A DNA stretch of 64,000 nt. It comes from Tautonia marina (lineage in GTDB: Bacteria; Planctomycetota; Planctomycetia; Isosphaerales; Isosphaeraceae). This document shows positions 18,022 through 26,551 of the stretch, piece after piece. Location of the stretch: assembly GCF_009177065.1 (NCBI RefSeq), contig NZ_WEZF01000010.1, positions 186,001 through 250,000 of the forward strand, written 5' to 3'. Made by a program: the position numbers and the translations under genes. Position 1 is the stretch's first letter. Each line of letters opens with the position of its first letter. The notes beneath the pieces were generated by a model, which saw nothing but the letters and a program-made list of their open reading frames with translations, had not been told where the DNA came from and searched no databases.

Positions 18022-18903
18022 ATGCCCCACGATCGCATGCCGACCTCGACCGCCTCTCCCCAGCTCTCGAAAATGAACTACGAGGTGGTCCGAACCCTCG
18101 GGACCGGCGCGGGCAGCACCATTCTGCTGATCCGAGACTCCGCCACCAGTCGTCGCTATGCGCTGAAGGTCGTCCGACGCCAGGGTCCGGACGACGATAT
18201 TTATGTCAATCAGGCGATGCAGGAGTTCCACGTCGCCCGGATGATCAACCATCCGAACATTTTGAAGGTGTACGACTGTCGGGTCCGAAAATCGTGGTTC
18301 CGCACCACGGGCGTCGAGCTTCTTATGGAGTATGTTGACGGCTTCGTGCTGGACGACGTCCCCTCCTTGCCGATCCCGAAACTGGTCGCCGTCTTTCGCC
18401 GAGTGGCCGACGCGATGGCCCACATGCACCGCCGGGGGGTCTACCACGGCGACCTGAAGCCGGGGAACCTGATGATCTCGAAATCCGGCGAGGTCAAGGT
18501 CATCGACTTCGGCACCGCCTGGATCCGAGGCGAAGACAAGGCCCGAGTCCAGGGCACTCCCTACTACATGGCGCCCGAACAAGCCTCGGATCGCATCGTC
18601 GACGAGAAGACCGATCTCTACAACTTCGGCGCGACGATGTATCGCATGTTCACCGGCGAGTATGCCAACCTCGGCATTCCGGGGCTCGACAACGGTCGAC
18701 TCAATCGCGCTCGAATGAAAACCCCCGCCGCGCTGGTGGCAGAGATTCCGAAATCGCTGAGCGATCTGATCATGCAGTGCATCGCACCGAAACCTGATCG
18801 CCGGCCTTCGGGAATGGCTGAAGTGCGCGACCGCCTCGATGAAATCGCCGCCGAACTGGGTTCCGAGGCCGATGACCTGACGGACTCGGATGTCCTCGAC
18901 TAA
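18022..18903 (+). CDS. Soluble Hanks-type Ser/Thr protein kinase
   Basis: The 293-residue protein is almost only a kinase domain. It has the glycine loop LGTGAGST (about 26-33), Lys49 in YALKVV, the catalytic loop HGDLKPGN with Asp144, DFG Asp162 and the activation-segment end GTPYYMAPEQ. HGD replaces HRD, so it is a non-RD kinase, usually not controlled by activation-loop phosphorylation. There is no transmembrane helix or sensor domain, unlike the typical PknB, so it must be recruited or regulated by partners. Translation may also start at ATG codon 6. No phosphatase gene is close by. Confidence 0.92.
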   Translation: MPHDRMPTSTASPQLSKMNYEVVRTLGTGAGSTILLIRDSATSRRYALKVVRRQGPDDDIYVNQAMQEFHVARMINHPNILKVYDCRVRKSWFRTTGVELLMEYVDGFVLDDVPSLPIPKLVAVFRRVADAMAHMHRRGVYHGDLKPGNLMISKSGEVKVIDFGTAWIRGEDKARVQGTPYYMAPEQASDRIVDEKTDLYNFGATMYRMFTGEYANLGIPGLDNGRLNRARMKTPAALVAEIPKSLSDLIMQCIAPKPDRRPSGMAEVRDRLDEIAAELGSEADDLTDSDVLD

Positions 18904-19360: not shown

Positions 19361-19536
19361 CGATTCTCCCGGTTGTGCTGCCGGTTCGTCCTTCGGAAGC
19401 TACGAGGGACGATTCATCGAGATGCTATGAATAGGTTGGTCGTTTCGGCGAAGAACTTCCGCCGAGAGCCGTTCGTGTCCCCATTCCGAACCGTGTGGGA
19501 CGAGTCGGTTCCAACGTCCGACCTTGGAGCATATCG

Positions 19537-21207
19537 ATGGCAACAATTGATCGACGCGGTCCCCAGGGCCGTGGCGAAGGTGGGCCACCCTCTCGCTGGT
19601 CCGGTCTTGTGGTGGGCCTGATCGCCGCCCTGGTCGTGGGTGGGTGGTTTCTGTACGGTGCATGTCGTCTTGAAGTCGGCAAGGGGAAGCAAGCCGTCCT
19701 GATCCGCAAGGTGGGGCACAATCTGGAACCCGGCATGGAGATCGCCGCGGCCTGGACCAAGGAGCGCGGCTACACCAAGGGAGTCCAGCCCGACGTCCTG
19801 ACCGAAGGCCGCTTCTTCTACAATCCGCTCTTCTGGGATTGGGAAATTACCGATCAGTTCCAGGTTCCCGAAGGCAAATGCGCGGTGACGGTCTCCCTGG
19901 TCGGCGATGAGCTCCCGGAAGGTCGGGTGCTGGCCGACGAGACACAGAAAGGCATCCGTCCCGGTGTGATCGAAGCGGGAGCCCGGGTCGCCTACAACCC
20001 TTACACCACCGAATTCCTCATCTTCGATCCGGTCGATGTGCCGACCGGCTCCCGAGGCGTCGTGACCTTGCTCTCTGGCCAAACCCCGAAAGACCCGAAC
20101 GTCGTGCTGGTCGATGAGGGGGAACGCGGCGTTCAGCTCAAGACCCTGCCCCCCGGCAAGTACTTCATCAACCCCTTCGAGCAGCGGATCAGCGTCGTCG
20201 ATTGCCGGACCCGCATCTTCGGGCTCAACGAGGACGCGGACATCACCTTCCTCTCGGCCGACGGCTTCAACATCTCGCTCGATGGCGCGGTCACCTTCCG
20301 CGTCTCCGAGGAACGGGCCGCCGAGGTCTTCGTCCTCTACAACGAAGATTTCAACGGCGAAGCCATCGACGATGAAATCATCGCCAAGATCATCACCCCG
20401 TATGCCCGTTCCATCTGCCGGGTCAACGGCTCGAAGCTCGACGCCGTGCAGTTCATCTCCGGCGACGACCGAGAGCTTTTCCAGCAAGACCTGGAGAGCA
20501 CGCTCTCGGCCCGTTGCGAGGATCAAGGCATTGAAATTCTCCAGGTCGCCGTCACGTCGGCCTCGGCCCCCGAGGAGATCCGCGCCCCGGTCCGAGCCCG
20601 AGAAGTCGCCAAGCAACAGCTCGAACAGTTCCTCCAGGAGAAACTTCAGCAAGAGTCTCAGGCCGAGCTCCGGGTCAAGAACCTGCTTGCCGAGCAAAAG
20701 GCCCGCCTGATCGAGGCCGAGCAAGAGGTCGTCGAGAAGACCACCAAGGCGATGCAGGATCAGGAGGTCGCCGTGACCGAGGGCGAGCAGCGGCTCGCCG
20801 TCACCCAGACCCAGCTCGAAGCGGCCAGGAACCGGGCCGCCGCCCTGCGGTCCGAGGCCCAGGCGTCGGCCGATGTCATCCGATTCAAGAACGAGGCGGA
20901 ACTGGCCGGCCTCGCCCTCCGCGTGACAGCCTTTGGCGGTGACGGTGGATCGCTCGCCCGGAACGTTCTCATCGGGAAACTCGCTCCCGCGTTCCAGTCG
21001 ATCCTCTCGAACTCCGACGGCCCGTTCATGGAGCTGTTCGGCTCCTTTGTCTCGGACACTCCGACCCCTGGTCTGACCCCAATGCCAGCGCCATCCCCTC
21101 GATCACCCGACCCGTCCGCGGGCAGTGATCCCCTGGCGAATGGTGACACCGACACCTCCGAGTCGCTCCCCAACAATCCCTTCCGAACTGCGGAGACGAA
21201 CCGATGA
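19537..21207 (+). CDS. SPFH/Band 7 membrane protein, first of a coupled pair
   Basis: The 556-residue protein has one transmembrane helix near its N-terminus (about residues 22-42), an SPFH domain (about 45-330) and a long charged alpha-helical region (about 340-450) rich in Glu, Gln and Ala that probably forms a coiled coil and oligomerises, as in flotillins. A low-complexity Pro/Ser tail follows. Its SD sequence GGAG (19526-19529) is seven bases before the ATG; an upstream in-frame start at 19495 is less likely. SPFH proteins build ring-like or lattice-like scaffolds at the inner membrane and often control proteases. The gene overlaps the next SPFH gene by ATGA. Confidence 0.85.
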   Translation: MATIDRRGPQGRGEGGPPSRWSGLVVGLIAALVVGGWFLYGACRLEVGKGKQAVLIRKVGHNLEPGMEIAAAWTKERGYTKGVQPDVLTEGRFFYNPLFWDWEITDQFQVPEGKCAVTVSLVGDELPEGRVLADETQKGIRPGVIEAGARVAYNPYTTEFLIFDPVDVPTGSRGVVTLLSGQTPKDPNVVLVDEGERGVQLKTLPPGKYFINPFEQRISVVDCRTRIFGLNEDADITFLSADGFNISLDGAVTFRVSEERAAEVFVLYNEDFNGEAIDDEIIAKIITPYARSICRVNGSKLDAVQFISGDDRELFQQDLESTLSARCEDQGIEILQVAVTSASAPEEIRAPVRAREVAKQQLEQFLQEKLQQESQAELRVKNLLAEQKARLIEAEQEVVEKTTKAMQDQEVAVTEGEQRLAVTQTQLEAARNRAAALRSEAQASADVIRFKNEAELAGLALRVTAFGGDGGSLARNVLIGKLAPAFQSILSNSDGPFMELFGSFVSDTPTPGLTPMPAPSPRSPDPSAGSDPLANGDTDTSESLPNNPFRTAETNR

Positions 21208-22961
21208 ACCCCCGAACGCTTCAACGCCTGATCGGGGTGGCCGTGACCCTGACGGCCCTCTTCGTCGGCGGCTACCTGATCGCCTGGAAGTGGGTCGTTT
21301 GCCGCGTCGAGGTCCCTCCCGGCGAGAGCCTCTTGCTGACCTACCGAGGCCCCTTCCCGCCCCTCCGATCGGTGCCGACCGCTCCCCGAGGAACGCTCGT
21401 CGAACTGGACCAGCGCGGTCGTCCTCAGCAGGTCGGCATTCTCCAAAATATGCTCGGGCCAGGACGGCACTTCATCAACCCACTCGAATACAAGTACGAA
21501 CGGATCAAGGATACCCTCGTCAAGCCGGGGGAGATCGGCGTTCTCACCGCCAAGTTCGGTGAGCAATTGCCACAAGGCCAGTACCTCGCCGATCGTGAAG
21601 GCCAGCGCGGCATTCAGCGGAAAGTGCTGACTCCCGGTCGATACCGGATCAATTCCTACGCCTACGACACAGAAATTCTTCCCGTCAACGCCTGCGTGAA
21701 AACCAATGGCGGCGTCCAGCACCAGGCTGGAGACGCCCTTCTGATTCCCGCGGGCTACGTTGGAGTCGTCACGAACCGCTCGGAGGATCTCCGAACCTCC
21801 GCTCGGCGTGGAACCCTCGATGACGTGCTTCAACCAGGCATCTACTACCTGAACCCTTATGCCACTCAGATCGACATCCTCAGCATTGGCTACAACGAGA
21901 CAACCCTCTCGGTTGAGGCCGAGGTTGGACCCGATGGCAAGCCTCTCTACAAGGCGATCGAGCCCGTCGGCGTCGATTCGGCAGCCCCCCTGGGCCGCGA
22001 TCCGGTCTACCGAAAAGACAAGGGCATCTGGTTCCTCTCACGTGATGGCTTCGACATCTTCCTGGACTTCACGACCATCTGGGGCATCCTCCCCGATCAG
22101 GCCCCCGACGTCATCCGACGCTTCGGCAAGTCCAGTGAAGAGGAACAGAACGTCTTGAAGGTCGTCGAGGAACAGGTTGTCCTGCCGGATATCGGCTCGA
22201 TCTGCCGGATCAACGGCTCCCGGCATGGTGCCGTCGACCTTCTCATCGGTGACAGCCGAGAAGCCTTCCAGACCGATACCTCCGAGGAACTGGAAGCCTC
22301 GTTGAAGCAAAAGAACATGACACTCCTGTTCGGTTTGCCTCGCCAGATTTATGTCCCGGCCGAGGTCCGAGAGCCGATTCAGCGTTCCAAGATCGCGACC
22401 GAAGTGAAGTTGACCAACGAGCAGAAACAGCTCACCGCCGAGGCCGAAGGCGACCTGCTGGAGGCCAAGGCCAAGGTTACCCTTGAGGAACGTCGGGTCG
22501 CCGCCGAAACCGAAAAACTGTTTGCCTCTGCCCTGGCTGAGGGTGAAAAGCAAGCCCGGCAAATCGAGGCCGAAACCGAAAAACTCGTTGCCGAACTCGA
22601 CGCGCAGACCGCCGCCATTCAGGCGGACATTACCACCACCATCGGCGAGGCCGAGGCGGAGAAGGTCGAGTTGACCAACGCCGCGCAGGCCGAGCGTTAC
22701 CAACGCTACGTCGAGACGCTCGGAGGCCCCGAGGCCTACAACCGTTACCTCTTTGCCGAGAACCTACCCGACGATCTCCGCCTCGGCATCTTCCACGCAG
22801 GACCGGGCACCTTCTGGACGGATCTTCGCGGCTTCGAGCAAGCCTTGCTCGGCAAGCTCGCATCCGATTCGATCGCGCCGGGATCTTCGCCCGATGATCT
22901 CCCTGCTTCCAGCCCGAGCGTGCCTCGGCCTGCATCCGTCCGCAGCTCGGATCGACGCTGA
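21204..22961 (+). CDS. SPFH/Band 7 membrane protein, second of a coupled pair
   Basis: The 585-residue protein has an N-terminal transmembrane helix at about 8-30, SPFH-type sequence to about residue 390, then a charged helical region (about 390-500, with repeated TAEAEGDLLEAKAKV-like segments) and a low-complexity Ser/Pro C-terminus. It shares its architecture with the protein just upstream; similar segments include the INGSRHGAVD and VNGSKLDAVQ stretches. The start overlaps the previous stop (ATGA). The two are probably made in fixed ratio and co-assemble, as HflK and HflC do, but no protease gene is next to them. Confidence 0.85.
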   Translation: MNPRTLQRLIGVAVTLTALFVGGYLIAWKWVVCRVEVPPGESLLLTYRGPFPPLRSVPTAPRGTLVELDQRGRPQQVGILQNMLGPGRHFINPLEYKYERIKDTLVKPGEIGVLTAKFGEQLPQGQYLADREGQRGIQRKVLTPGRYRINSYAYDTEILPVNACVKTNGGVQHQAGDALLIPAGYVGVVTNRSEDLRTSARRGTLDDVLQPGIYYLNPYATQIDILSIGYNETTLSVEAEVGPDGKPLYKAIEPVGVDSAAPLGRDPVYRKDKGIWFLSRDGFDIFLDFTTIWGILPDQAPDVIRRFGKSSEEEQNVLKVVEEQVVLPDIGSICRINGSRHGAVDLLIGDSREAFQTDTSEELEASLKQKNMTLLFGLPRQIYVPAEVREPIQRSKIATEVKLTNEQKQLTAEAEGDLLEAKAKVTLEERRVAAETEKLFASALAEGEKQARQIEAETEKLVAELDAQTAAIQADITTTIGEAEAEKVELTNAAQAERYQRYVETLGGPEAYNRYLFAENLPDDLRLGIFHAGPGTFWTDLRGFEQALLGKLASDSIAPGSSPDDLPASSPSVPRPASVRSSDRR

Positions 22962-23060: not shown

Positions 23061-24176
23061 TCACCCGTCAATCTCCAGAGACGGAACCGTCACACCCAGC
23101 GCCTCGGCCAGTTCGACCAGTTTCGACCAGTGGCCGTCCGACAGCGCAATCCCCTCTCGGGTCCGAGTTTCCATGACCCTCCGTTCCGGATCGCCCGGCA
23201 AGGTGATCGAATCCACCCCCTCGGCCGTTGGCGTGTTCCGGACGAATCGGGAGACACAGGTCGATTCCCGGAGCATCGCATCCCGCCCCGCAAACCGCGC
23301 TGGGTCGAGCAGTATGAACAGCAGGTTGTTCCCTCGGGCCGGTAGAGCCCCTTCATGGCAAGCCCTTCCCCCGGAGAAACCAGCGGCCAGCATGTCGAGC
23401 ACCAGGGCCAGGCCGAAACCCTTGTAGGCCTGCGTTCCTCCCATCGGCAGGATCGAACCTGATGGCTCGGTATAGAGCACGCTCGGATCGGTCGTCGGCT
23501 TCCCTTCATGATCAAGCAGCCAGCCCTCGGGAACCGGCTGCTTGTTGATGTGATAAACCCTTACCTTTCCTTCCGCAGCGACGCTAGTGCCGAAATCAAG
23601 CACAACCGGCCCGTCCTCTGTCGGCACGGCGGCGCAAAGCGGGTTGGTCCCGAGCCTCGGCTCCAACCCTCCCGGCGGAGAAACTCGCTGACCGGCGCCA
23701 TTGTTATTGACCGTGGCAAGCAGGACTAGATCGAGAGCCGCGGCCCGTTCGGCATACTCACCCAACCGCCCGATATGGCCGCAGTCCTTCGCGGCTCCGG
23801 CCGCGATCCCCATTGCCTGGGCCTTGGGAATCAGGTGATCGAGCAATCGGTGCGCTTGCACCTGTCCGAATCCCCATTGTCCATCGGCGACGATCAGGGC
23901 TGGTCCCTCGCTCTCAATCTTCAGCGGAACGCCGGGCTTGTAGATTCCCTCCTGGACGAAGCCCACATATTGCGGCACGCGCATCACGCCGTGTGAGTCG
24001 TGTCCTCGCAGGTTCGCACCCACCAACCCCTCGGCAACCACCTTCGCTTCCTCGACAGGCACGCCGACGGCATCGAAGATCCGGACGGTGAACTCGTGAA
24101 GGGACTCGGGTCGGATCGTCGGCACGGTATCGGCTCCCTGATTGTGGTGCGAAGGTACGCTCAAGACCTCGATCAT
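23061..24176 (-). CDS. Malate/L-lactate dehydrogenase family oxidoreductase (Ldh/YlbC type)
   Basis: The 371-residue protein belongs to the malate/L-sulfolactate/L-lactate dehydrogenase family, which uses NAD(P)H in a fold unrelated to classic LDH. Family signatures visible are ANLRGHDSHGVMRVPQYVGF near the N-terminus and GFGLALVLDMLAAGFSGG in the C-terminal half. Substrates include 2-oxo acids, ureidoglycolate or delta-1-piperideine-2-carboxylate. It lies 19 bases downstream of the phzF-like gene on the same strand and is the last gene before a terminator. The start at 24176 is chosen since an upstream ATG in frame would overlap the preceding gene; a GTG at 24125 is an alternative. Confidence 0.85.
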   Translation of the reverse strand: MIEVLSVPSHHNQGADTVPTIRPESLHEFTVRIFDAVGVPVEEAKVVAEGLVGANLRGHDSHGVMRVPQYVGFVQEGIYKPGVPLKIESEGPALIVADGQWGFGQVQAHRLLDHLIPKAQAMGIAAGAAKDCGHIGRLGEYAERAAALDLVLLATVNNNGAGQRVSPPGGLEPRLGTNPLCAAVPTEDGPVVLDFGTSVAAEGKVRVYHINKQPVPEGWLLDHEGKPTTDPSVLYTEPSGSILPMGGTQAYKGFGLALVLDMLAAGFSGGRACHEGALPARGNNLLFILLDPARFAGRDAMLRESTCVSRFVRNTPTAEGVDSITLPGDPERRVMETRTREGIALSDGHWSKLVELAEALGVTVPSLEIDG

Positions 24177-24195
24177 ACTTGCCCATGCCGCGAAT

Positions 24196-25044
24196 TCAAC
24201 GGCCGCCAGGAATGGGCCAATCCACCGCCCCGACGGGCGATTCCACCAGCTCACCCCTCAAGACTGTCACCGCCTGCCCGGCCAGCTCCACTCGATCGCC
24301 GAGCACCTGAACATGAACCCGGCCACCTCGCGTCGAAACCTGCTCTCCCACCAGAACGTTCCGTCCCAGCCGGTCGCTCCAGAACGGCCCCAGGGCACAG
24401 TGTGCCGATCCGGTGACCGGATCTTCATCGACTCCCGCGGCCGGGGCGAAGAAGCGGGAGACAAAATCAACCCCTTCCCGCTGCGAGGCTGCCGTCACAA
24501 TCGATCCCCTGATGGGCAGCAGCCGAAGGCGTCCCAGATCCGGAGCCAGGGCTCGCACCTCAGCCTCGTCGTTCAGTTCGACAAGCATGTCCATCCGGTT
24601 TCCCCCCACGAATCGAGGGGTGGTGCCCAATGCTTCGCACAAGCCCGCTGGTGCCTCCCGCACTCGAATCGGCTCGGCCGGGAAGTCGAGGGCAATCAGC
24701 GATCCAGACCGTCGAGCCGAAAGGCGACCGGAGCGGGTCTGAAACACCGCCGTCGCTTCGAGAGGAAGATGCTGATCTTCCCAGAGCACATGCGCCGCGG
24801 CCAGGGTGGCGTGGCCGCACAAATCGACCTCGACCGTTGGCGTGAACCATCGCAAACGATACGCGCCGTACTCCTCTTCGGCCGACTCCGGAACCACAAA
24901 CGCGGTTTCCGAGAGATTCATCTCCCGCGCAACGTTCTGCATCCACGACTCGTCCGCGGGACCGTCGAGCACACAGACCGCCGCCGGATTTCCGGCAAAC
25001 GGGCGATCCGCGAAGGCATCCACGTGAACAATCCGCTGGCCCAT
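24196..25044 (-). CDS. PhzF-like isomerase
   Basis: The 282-residue protein has the PhzF/DAP-epimerase-like fold. Signatures are VDAFADRPFAGNPAAVCVL at the start, NLSETAFVV with the catalytic Glu, DLCGHATLAAAHVL, and DPVTGSAHCALG near the end. The named member PhzF isomerises dihydro-hydroxyanthranilate in phenazine synthesis, but no other phenazine genes are nearby and most relatives have other, unknown substrates. The start was moved to the ATG at 25044, since the longer frame begins before the domain. It lies between the peroxiredoxin-kinase gene and the dehydrogenase on the same strand, so the three probably share a transcript. Confidence 0.88.
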   Translation of the reverse strand: MGQRIVHVDAFADRPFAGNPAAVCVLDGPADESWMQNVAREMNLSETAFVVPESAEEEYGAYRLRWFTPTVEVDLCGHATLAAAHVLWEDQHLPLEATAVFQTRSGRLSARRSGSLIALDFPAEPIRVREAPAGLCEALGTTPRFVGGNRMDMLVELNDEAEVRALAPDLGRLRLLPIRGSIVTAASQREGVDFVSRFFAPAAGVDEDPVTGSAHCALGPFWSDRLGRNVLVGEQVSTRGGRVHVQVLGDRVELAGQAVTVLRGELVESPVGAVDWPIPGGR

Positions 25045-25111
25045 TGATTCCAGATTCCTGAAGACGGGTGATCTCGGAAGACGCTGCGTTCGTCCCCTTC
25101 TCGAAGAAACG

Positions 25112-26551
25112 TTACGTGTCGTCACCAAAAGGTTCGCGTTCCGGTGTCCGAACACCCTGGATTGCCTCGAATTGATCGAGCGCGAGGGGAAGTTGCTCGG
25201 CAATCTGTTGCATGGTCAAGGTCCGTCGGCTGGGGTCCGGCTCCAGTGCCCGCCGGACGATCGTCGCGAAGGAATCCGGGACCTCTGCGGCAAGCGTTTC
25301 GGGGTCGATCGTTCGGATGGCGTCGAGCGCCTGAAGAATCGTCCTCGCCTGAATCGTCGGCCGACCGGTCAAGAGTTCGAACAGGATCGATCCCATTGCA
25401 AACAGGTCCGAGGCCATCGAGGAGGGCTCGCCTCTCACCTGTTCCGGCGCCATGTAGCCAGGGGTGCCCGTCAGCCCGGCAGAGGTCCCCAGGTCGTCGC
25501 GATCCACCGTATCCATCGGGTCGGCGGGATGTTCGATCCGACGAGCGAGCCCGAAATCGACGATCTTCGCATGCCCCGAGGCATCGACCAGGATGTTCTG
25601 CGGCTTCAGATCTCCATGAACCACCCCCGCCTCATGAGCCGCGGCCATGCCCAGAGCAATCTGTCGGGCAATCTCGACCGCTTCGGCGATCGTCAATGTG
25701 CCCGAGGCAATCAAACGGTCAAGTCGCGTCCCATCGAGATATTCCATCGCGATGAGCGGAACACCGTCGTTGTCATCCACGGCATAAACGGTACAGATAT
25801 TCGGGTGATTCAACCCAGCCGCGACCCGCGCCTCATCGAGTAACGCTCGCGGCCGAGCACTGACTCCCGGTCTGAGCACCTTCAAGGCCACCGGCCGCCG
25901 GAGCGTCTCATCGATGGCAAGAAAGACTGCCGCGAAGCTCCCTTCCCCCAGCCGTCGCTCGATCCGATACTGCGCCACAACCCGTCCCGGAGCCAGGAGC
26001 CGGGTCGGATCGAGGACCGCGTCTCCCAGACCCCAACCCGAGGGACACATCCCTCCGCTTTGCAAGGCACCGAGAACGCGGAGCACTTCGTCAGCCCGTC
26101 GGCCAACCCCAAGCGCATGGACCGTTTGATATTGGATCTTCCCGTCCGGATCAATCAAAAACAATCCCCGCAACGCAACTCCTGGAGGGTCCTGGTACAC
26201 GCCGAATTCACGGCTGACACGACCTCCCTCGTCGCTGGCCAGGGGAAAGGCAATCGCACCGAGTCCCCCGCGTTCCGGTTCCGTCGCGAGCCATCGACGA
26301 TGCGAATCAATCGAGTCGCAATTGATGCCGAGAATCGCGCAATTCATTCGAGCAAACTGATCGACTCGGTCAGCCAGTGCTGTCAGTTCGGTCGGACAGA
26401 TCAGGGAGAAATCCCTCGGGTAGAAGATCAGGGCCAACCACCGCCCCTGATAGTCGATCAACCGGACCCGACCCATCCCCTTATCCGCCGAAACGGCCGG
26501 CAGGTCGAATTCCGGAGCAGCGCGGCCGATCATCGGCTCGACAACGGACAT
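25112..26551 (-). CDS. Peroxiredoxin-Ser/Thr protein kinase fusion
   Basis: The 479-residue protein joins two complete enzymes. Residues 1-180 are an AhpC/TSA peroxiredoxin with peroxidatic Cys52 in LICPTELTALA and a second Cys169 in GGMCPSGWG at the position of the resolving Cys of typical two-Cys enzymes. Residues about 196-455 are a Hanks kinase with glycine loop LGEGSFAAVF, Lys224, catalytic loop HGDLKPQN with Asp314, DFG Asp332 and GTPGYMAPEQ. It is a non-RD kinase like its neighbour at 18 kb. There is no frameshift, stop or linker repeat between domains, and no membrane segment. The fusion suggests direct control of kinase activity by peroxide or thiol state. The gene has the PhzF-like and Ldh-like genes downstream. 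Confidence 0.92.
   Translation of the reverse strand: MSVVEPMIGRAAPEFDLPAVSADKGMGRVRLIDYQGRWLALIFYPRDFSLICPTELTALADRVDQFARMNCAILGINCDSIDSHRRWLATEPERGGLGAIAFPLASDEGGRVSREFGVYQDPPGVALRGLFLIDPDGKIQYQTVHALGVGRRADEVLRVLGALQSGGMCPSGWGLGDAVLDPTRLLAPGRVVAQYRIERRLGEGSFAAVFLAIDETLRRPVALKVLRPGVSARPRALLDEARVAAGLNHPNICTVYAVDDNDGVPLIAMEYLDGTRLDRLIASGTLTIAEAVEIARQIALGMAAAHEAGVVHGDLKPQNILVDASGHAKIVDFGLARRIEHPADPMDTVDRDDLGTSAGLTGTPGYMAPEQVRGEPSSMASDLFAMGSILFELLTGRPTIQARTILQALDAIRTIDPETLAAEVPDSFATIVRRALEPDPSRRTLTMQQIAEQLPLALDQFEAIQGVRTPEREPFGDDT

Follow-up and report, generated by a model that had tools for sequence, protein, structure and literature searches.

A peroxiredoxin–Hanks-type kinase fusion in Tautonia marina as a probable peroxide-sensing Ser/Thr kinase

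Can a bacterial Ser/Thr kinase that carries a peroxiredoxin (Prx) on the same polypeptide sense peroxide by itself? A gene of Tautonia marina raises this question; it lies within the 64,000-nucleotide stretch of DNA analysed here (the window; positions are counted within it). An initial annotation, made from the sequence, had placed a Prx and a kinase in one frame at 25112–26551, and the frame is indeed there: translation of the minus strand from 26551 to 25112 gives an intact open reading frame of 479 residues in which both Pfam domains are found, Prx before Hanks-type kinase (Table 1).

One frame, two domains and their distribution

The Pfam matches are AhpC-TSA at residues 8–141 (protein E 9e-34) and Pkinase at residues 195–451 (E 9e-49). 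Among solved structures, the nearest sequences are the 2-Cys Prx 5zte (E 1.8e-44) and the kinases StkP (9ruk, E 2.2e-36) and PknB. An AlphaFold2 monomer model built from 12 sequences (mean pLDDT 81.6, pTM 0.61) contains both sets of secondary-structure elements in order, and Foldseek matches the halves to separate PDB sets, namely M. tuberculosis kinase 6b2q (target TM 0.81) and human Prx1 4xcs (0.88). Model confidence is low around Cys52, around and after Cys169 and in the activation loop; the pLDDT block means of 62 (residues 161–170) and 51 (171–180) argue against fixing the domain arrangement from the monomer. The protein is probably cytosolic, since its maximum 19-residue hydropathy is only 1.15 and it holds no strongly hydrophobic segment. 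It is unlike the 70–80% of predicted planctomycete kinases that have membrane segments according to the available text of PMC11032199.

Table 1. Positions in the window of the fusion gene, its domains and key residues, and two downstream genes
Feature	Position	Strand	Remarks
Fusion gene	25112..26551	-	ATG at 26551, stop 25112-25114, 479 aa
Peroxiredoxin domain, residues 1-168 (Pfam AhpC-TSA 8-141)	26048..26551	-	Pfam; PDB relatives are 2-Cys Prx, best E 1.8e-44
Ser49, catalytic-triad Ser (Ser-type Prx)	26405..26407	-	34/35 aligned members, 35/36 in wider row set
Cys52, peroxidatic cysteine (FSLICPTE)	26396..26398	-	Invariant in alignment
Cys169, resolving cysteine (GGMCPSGW)	26045..26047	-	Invariant in alignment
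Tail/spacer, residues 170-194	25970..26044	-	Alignment; weak likeness to AhpC C-terminal tail
Protein kinase domain, residues 195-451	25199..25969	-	Pfam, PDB sequence search, structure model, Foldseek
Lys224 (VALK lysine)	25880..25882	-	Invariant in alignment
His312-Gly313-Asp314, HGD replacing HRD	25610..25618	-	Alignment
Activation loop, Asp332 (DFG) to Gly362 (GTP)	25466..25558	-	30 residues here, 22-69 in relatives
PhzF	24196-25047		Downstream of fusion
Ldh_2	23061-24254		Downstream of fusion

The possibility of an assembly error, against which the initial annotation had cautioned, is ruled out by the same fused frame in 17 of the 45 genomes searched in the family and in 12 of the 392 sampled from the phylum, T. 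marina being counted in both. Some of the genomes are assembled in one to three contigs, and this recurrence, together with low dN/dS, disposes equally of a chance frame. In the family (Isosphaeraceae), searched with residues 1–195, the 17 genomes match at E 6e-64 or better in frames of 466–562 aa and the other 28 are without the fusion; below E 6e-64 a gap extends to about 1e-33, where stand-alone enzymes start. Three of three sampled sister genomes in the genus Tautonia carry it. A second planctomycete family, that of genome G282, has a fusion-type Prx match in 16 of 170 genomes, 14 of them in frames of at least 479 aa; among the 16, one copy is cut by a contig end (G652) and one has an in-frame stop in the kinase N-lobe (G596). 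In the latter (L206), the stop falls soon after the VALK-type lysine and removes the kinase half, through either recent gene decay or sequence error. A named collection contributed at least 12 fusion loci among its best 80 matches, one of them cut short by a contig end (L090). Outside the phylum, the fusion occurs in 2 of 132 genomes of the phylum of a record titled 'Zixiibacteriota' (L083:5971-7356 and L165).

Lower-scoring matches do not extend this range. Eight from the phylum sample, including the six longest frames (331–738 aa), are all stand-alone Prx with no adjoining or downstream kinase, and the long-frame lower matches of the family are also kinase-free, ending 10–13 residues past the last cysteine. 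No fusion was recognised in 282, 297 and 301 genomes from the phyla of records titled Myxococcota, Acidobacteria and Anaerolineaceae, respectively; frames longer than 350 aa in the Myxococcota and Acidobacteria searches are without a kinase at L207, L209 and L210, with G1380 (355 aa) falling outside those three. The 232 genomes of the phylum of a record titled Verrucomicrobia, mostly small among the rows shown, gave no match whatever, an empty result that proves nothing.

Conservation of the two active sites and of the spacer

Residue counts refer to a 35-row alignment made of the 28 family and phylum fusions and 7 of the 12 from the named collection; L080, L084, L086 and L089 (same genomes as L024, L051, L052 and L033) and L090 (contig end) were left out. 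Six further copies (L199, L200, L202, L203, L204 and L205) stand outside all counts, the sequence of L200 being that of L082. The search patterns for the named collection contain Ser49 or HGD, and its fusion and non-fusion rows over-represent both; the 28 fusions found by similarity in the family and phylum searches have Ser and HGD in 28 of 28.

The initial annotation had numbered the key residues as Cys52, Cys169, Lys224, Asp314 and Asp332; this numbering is right, and all five are invariant, originally in 28 of 28 and then in 35 of 35 aligned members. The search that it proposed for the same architecture, with both cysteines, in other planctomycetes thus returned both in every aligned member. 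Pro45 and Arg128 are equally unchanged, so that the Pxxx(T/S)xxC motif and distal Arg of typical 2-Cys Prx (Prx1/AhpC) are present as P45, S49 (Thr in 1 of 35), C52 and R128. The C-terminal resolving cysteine of that class corresponds to C169, which lies 117 residues from Cys52 in all 35; the GG of the GGLG motif is universal and its final Gly is found in 27. The NCBIfam whole-protein cut-offs were not reached for TIGR03137 (AhpC equivalog, 113.3 of 272 bits) or NF040737 (PrxU, 149.6 of 270 bits).

The catalytic triad is of the Ser type in 35 of 36 fusions, L085 being the only one with Thr, whereas among 33 stand-alone rows from planctomycetes Ser occurs once and Thr 31 times, one row being unreadable. 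Ser is also found outside the fusions: 28 of all 70 stand-alone rows carry it, many of them collected by a Ser-containing pattern, and it may predate the fusion because the stand-alone rows nearest in the tree have Ser. According to the accessible part of PMC8300647, Ser-Prx account for 7.4% of bacterial sequences and bacterial Ser-type AhpC is mostly decameric in either redox state; AhpC of S. epidermidis is mostly decameric as the Thr mutant too, so that Ser is not the sole decamer determinant. Oxidised yeast Tsa1 T44S and Tsa2 likewise remain decameric, with decamers in both redox states (PMC5024103, partial text). By analogy with these several studied enzymes, the Ser-type triad would favour a decamer that survives oxidation. 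The disulfide-linked dimers of the initial annotation accordingly need refining to a predicted decamer stable on oxidation, in which the redox change may act via the C-terminal tail inside the ring and not through free dimers.

The kinase half exceeds the PF00069 gathering score (166.7 versus 31.7 bits). None of the Hanks-type residues Lys224, Glu240 (assigned to alpha-C by position), Asp314, Asn319, Asp332 and the PE Glu varies among the 35 members, nor do His312 and Gly313. The claim of a kinase with all catalytic motifs is therefore nearly right, the one correction being at HRD, the Arg of which is replaced by Gly in every aligned member. HGD in place of the HRD arginine of the RD subtype is found in 36 of 36 fusion kinase domains, versus HRD in 18 of 18 readable domains among the genome's 19 best-scoring paralogs (the nineteenth was unmatched by the motif search); it is not unique to fusions, since 33 of the 56 kinase rows without a Prx part also have it, many of which a pattern containing HGD had retrieved. 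In eukaryotic kinases, absence of the HRD arginine is generally associated with control independent of activation-loop phosphorylation. For an HGD (non-RD) kinase such control is thus less likely than in the usual PknB picture, and the freely varying length of the activation loop, 22–69 residues across the 35 members, fits control that does not depend on it. Nor is this a PASTA kinase of the PknB/Stk1 type, with 210.5 of 450 bits for NF033483, no PASTA Pfam match at E 0.001 and no strongly hydrophobic stretch.

A universal third cysteine was not found among the aligned members, Cys71 and Cys253 each occurring in 30 of 35. Cys71 is absent from L030, L033, L081, L083 (Ala) and L061 (Val), and L030 and L033 are also without Cys253; in the Prx tree, L030, L033, L081 and L083 group together with weak support. 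Cys253 lies in the kinase N-lobe, and the five members that lack it have Ser, Gly or Ala there. A motif search for Cys at this position was negative in all 18 domains that were readable out of the 19 near paralogs, and positive in 3 of the remaining 37 non-fusion rows. Two side observations concern kinases. One locus (L192:5969-8467, genome G071) encodes a Prx, then an HGD kinase, then a second kinase with an HRD motif. Within the window itself, a further kinase-like match (E 2.9e-29, 36% identity) lies about 6 kb from the fusion on the plus strand at 18040-18840 (G000:C10:204040-204840).

Between the two sites the spacing is nearly fixed. The distance from Cys169 to Gly202 of the kinase glycine loop is 33 residues in 32 of 35 members and 34 in the other three, in contrast to the variable activation loop, and the Pfam kinase match starts 26 residues past Cys169. 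Among stand-alone Prx, 17 of 70 end 21 residues after the resolving cysteine (the AhpC pattern) and the others 10 to 38 after it. Compared with the AhpC tail, the spacers of 26 of 35 rows, which are related to each other, score above 95% of shuffles, a weak likeness that is suggestive only. The C-terminal tail of AhpC is described in the available text of PMC5124861 as a switch between folded and unfolded forms. Because the kinase begins 26 residues past Cys169 and the tail is partly AhpC-like, the kinase N-lobe appears to continue the redox-switch tail. A short fixed spacer can, however, be inherited without function.

Origin, selection and gene neighbourhood

In a Prx tree of 106 of 114 rows (seven duplicates and L090 out), a single branch with support 99/93, recovered in 98% of 200 bootstrap trees, separates the 36 fusions from all other rows, the bootstrap being not quite settled. 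The fusions also form one clade (SH-aLRT 100) in a quick kinase-domain tree of 92 of 102 rows (the same eight and two short rows out). Both trees include L165, which is absent from the 35-row alignment. Since each half forms one clade, a single fusion event is likely, and its placement in the planctomycetes is the most likely. In the Prx tree the 'Zixiibacteriota' copies nest, with weak local support, among the fusions from planctomycetes, and in the kinase tree they branch at a fork of the fusion clade that is not resolved; the fusion may on this topology have been transferred between phyla. Prx and kinase distances agree (Mantel r 0.92, with 0 of 2000 permutations as high). For eight close pairs, dN/dS is 0.05–0.16 in the Prx and 0.07–0.17 in the kinase, which indicates purifying selection on both, and 0 to 0.46 in the 25-codon linker, whose shortness makes its values uncertain. 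Both active sites are intact throughout the aligned members, the G596 copy with its kinase stop being an exception that is absent from the alignment.

A comparison of loci from both families revealed no gene that accompanies the fusion in each, the neighbours differing between them. The same comparison found no reductase or oxidative-stress gene recurring beside the fusion, which counts against a redox model. PhzF and Ldh_2 genes follow the fusion in the four Tautonia loci read, and a co-directional HAD-type gene is the next one downstream in 12 of 13 other family loci (e.g. L182:7114-7920); the HAD-type gene cluster is possibly linked to it in function. A conserved operon partner was rejected, as neither the PhzF/Ldh_2 nor the HAD-type cluster occurs in eight second-family loci. 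Among the neighbours, the Pfam scan covered a single HAD protein together with PhzF and Ldh_2 from the window. The window also encodes two tandem SPFH/Band 7 proteins at 19495-22961.

A probable peroxide-sensing kinase and its alternatives

The fusion joins in one chain a Ser-type typical 2-Cys Prx and an HGD Hanks-type kinase, each complete as judged from its residues, with a near-fixed spacer leading from the resolving cysteine. We consider its best explanation, and probably the correct one, to be a cytosolic Ser/Thr kinase with a built-in peroxide sensor. H2O2 would convert Cys52 to a sulfenic acid, whereupon Cys169 of the partner subunit would leave its folded place and form the predicted inter-subunit disulfide. 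Because the Cys169 tail passes directly into the kinase N-lobe, the position or pairing of the kinase domains, and hence kinase activity, could follow the redox state of the Prx, perhaps inside a decamer stabilised in part by the Ser triad; a thioredoxin-like reductant would reset the sensor. We lean towards activation upon oxidation. The strict joint conservation of both peroxidase cysteines and the kinase residues, along with the near-fixed spacer, supports such peroxide control. In a more specific version, which we advance tentatively and regard as rather doubtful in its entirety, ten kinase domains would be mounted on a decamer of Ser-type 2-Cys Prx that remains intact upon oxidation, their N-lobes continuing the redox-switch tail to give a peroxide-gated kinase ring. 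To our knowledge, such a ring mechanism is known for no kinase.

Other readings share part of this evidence. The two enzymes might be joined for co-localisation or ring assembly only, the Prx serving as an oligomeric scaffold that removes H2O2 locally and the kinase being insensitive to redox state. The stable decamers favoured by a Ser-type triad would suit this arrangement, but it would predict loss of cysteines or slack in the spacer, and with no cysteine lost and a spacer varying by at most one residue in 35 diverse rows we think it unlikely. The roles might also be reversed, with the peroxidase as output and the kinase as a regulator that phosphorylates its own Prx domain or ring neighbours to tune peroxide removal. 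All 35 members pair a full kinase motif set with an intact peroxidase site, and phosphorylation of Prx has been reported in general; a fixed spacer at the redox switch nevertheless suits an input better than an output, and we give this reading little weight.

A redox relay would instead have the Prx oxidise a cysteine located either in the kinase or in a bound substrate, the resulting disulfide or sulfenate altering the output. In its favour are the enrichment of Cys253 in fusions (30 of 35, versus none in 18 readable near paralogs and 3 of 37 other non-fusion rows) and the stimulation by Tsa1 of sulfenylation of the PKA catalytic subunit (PMC7392609, available portion). A Cys253 relay cannot be the general mechanism, however, since Cys253 is replaced by Ser, Gly or Ala in five of 35; a relay via any third conserved cysteine was rejected, Cys71 and Cys253 each reaching only 30, and the relay is on balance improbable. 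Finally, the protein might be essentially a peroxidase, with an HGD domain that is a pseudokinase or a kinase of non-protein substrates. This is highly improbable: although the HRD Arg is Gly in 36 of 36, the Lys, alpha-C Glu, catalytic Asp, Asn, DFG Asp and PE Glu are invariant in 35 of 35, and HGD also marks those 33 of 56 non-fusion kinase rows, many from the HGD pattern.

The favoured peroxide-sensing kinase resembles known systems in its parts. With typical 2-Cys Prx of the Prx1/AhpC type (PDB 5zte, 4xcs, 5ijt) it has in common the fold, the PxxxSxxC and Arg site and both cysteines, but where they end in a free tail or YF helix it continues into a kinase, and Ser replaces Thr in the triad. 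It shares the kinase fold and motifs of PknA/PknB/StkP-type kinases (PDB 6b2q, 1mru, 9ruk), yet differs from them in having no strongly hydrophobic segment and no PASTA match, HGD where they have HRD, and a peroxidase domain at its N-terminus. Like the fusion, an M. tuberculosis Ser/Thr kinase that carries a DsbA/thioredoxin-like domain (PMC1262709, accessible text) joins a kinase to a redox-type domain, although that domain differs and is not a peroxidase. The same holds for PknG, a Ser/Thr kinase with a rubredoxin. The closest functional parallel acts in trans: yeast Tsa1 controls PKA, a 2-Cys Prx thereby setting kinase activity by H2O2 (available text of PMC7392609), but there two proteins are involved and a kinase cysteine has a role, whereas the fusion is one chain with no fully conserved kinase cysteine.

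The initial annotation knew of no characterised example of this architecture, and none emerged here: no published Prx–kinase fusion was found by title and abstract start in the open-licence literature, so novelty in print is provisional. The accessible text of PMC11032199 reports 105 accessory domain groups in planctomycete kinases; its main text contains no AhpC, redoxin or peroxi, and its supplementary table may list the domain. The fusion was not found in the available parts of PMC3281104, PMC2837644 and PMC8567305. We describe the protein as a Ser/Thr kinase whose likely input is a covalently attached 2-Cys Prx that is catalytically complete by sequence.

Signalling from Prx to kinase has been argued mainly from separate eukaryotic proteins, and a natural one-chain version lets one purified protein test it. 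If the ring reading is true, H2O2 would be turned into phosphorylation without a relay partner by an arrangement kept since one fusion event. The fusion has been kept in two planctomycete families and beyond; if the peroxide-sensing reading is true, bacterial Ser/Thr kinases would gain a peroxide input, and the fusion would provide a natural template for single-protein peroxide-to-phosphorylation sensors.
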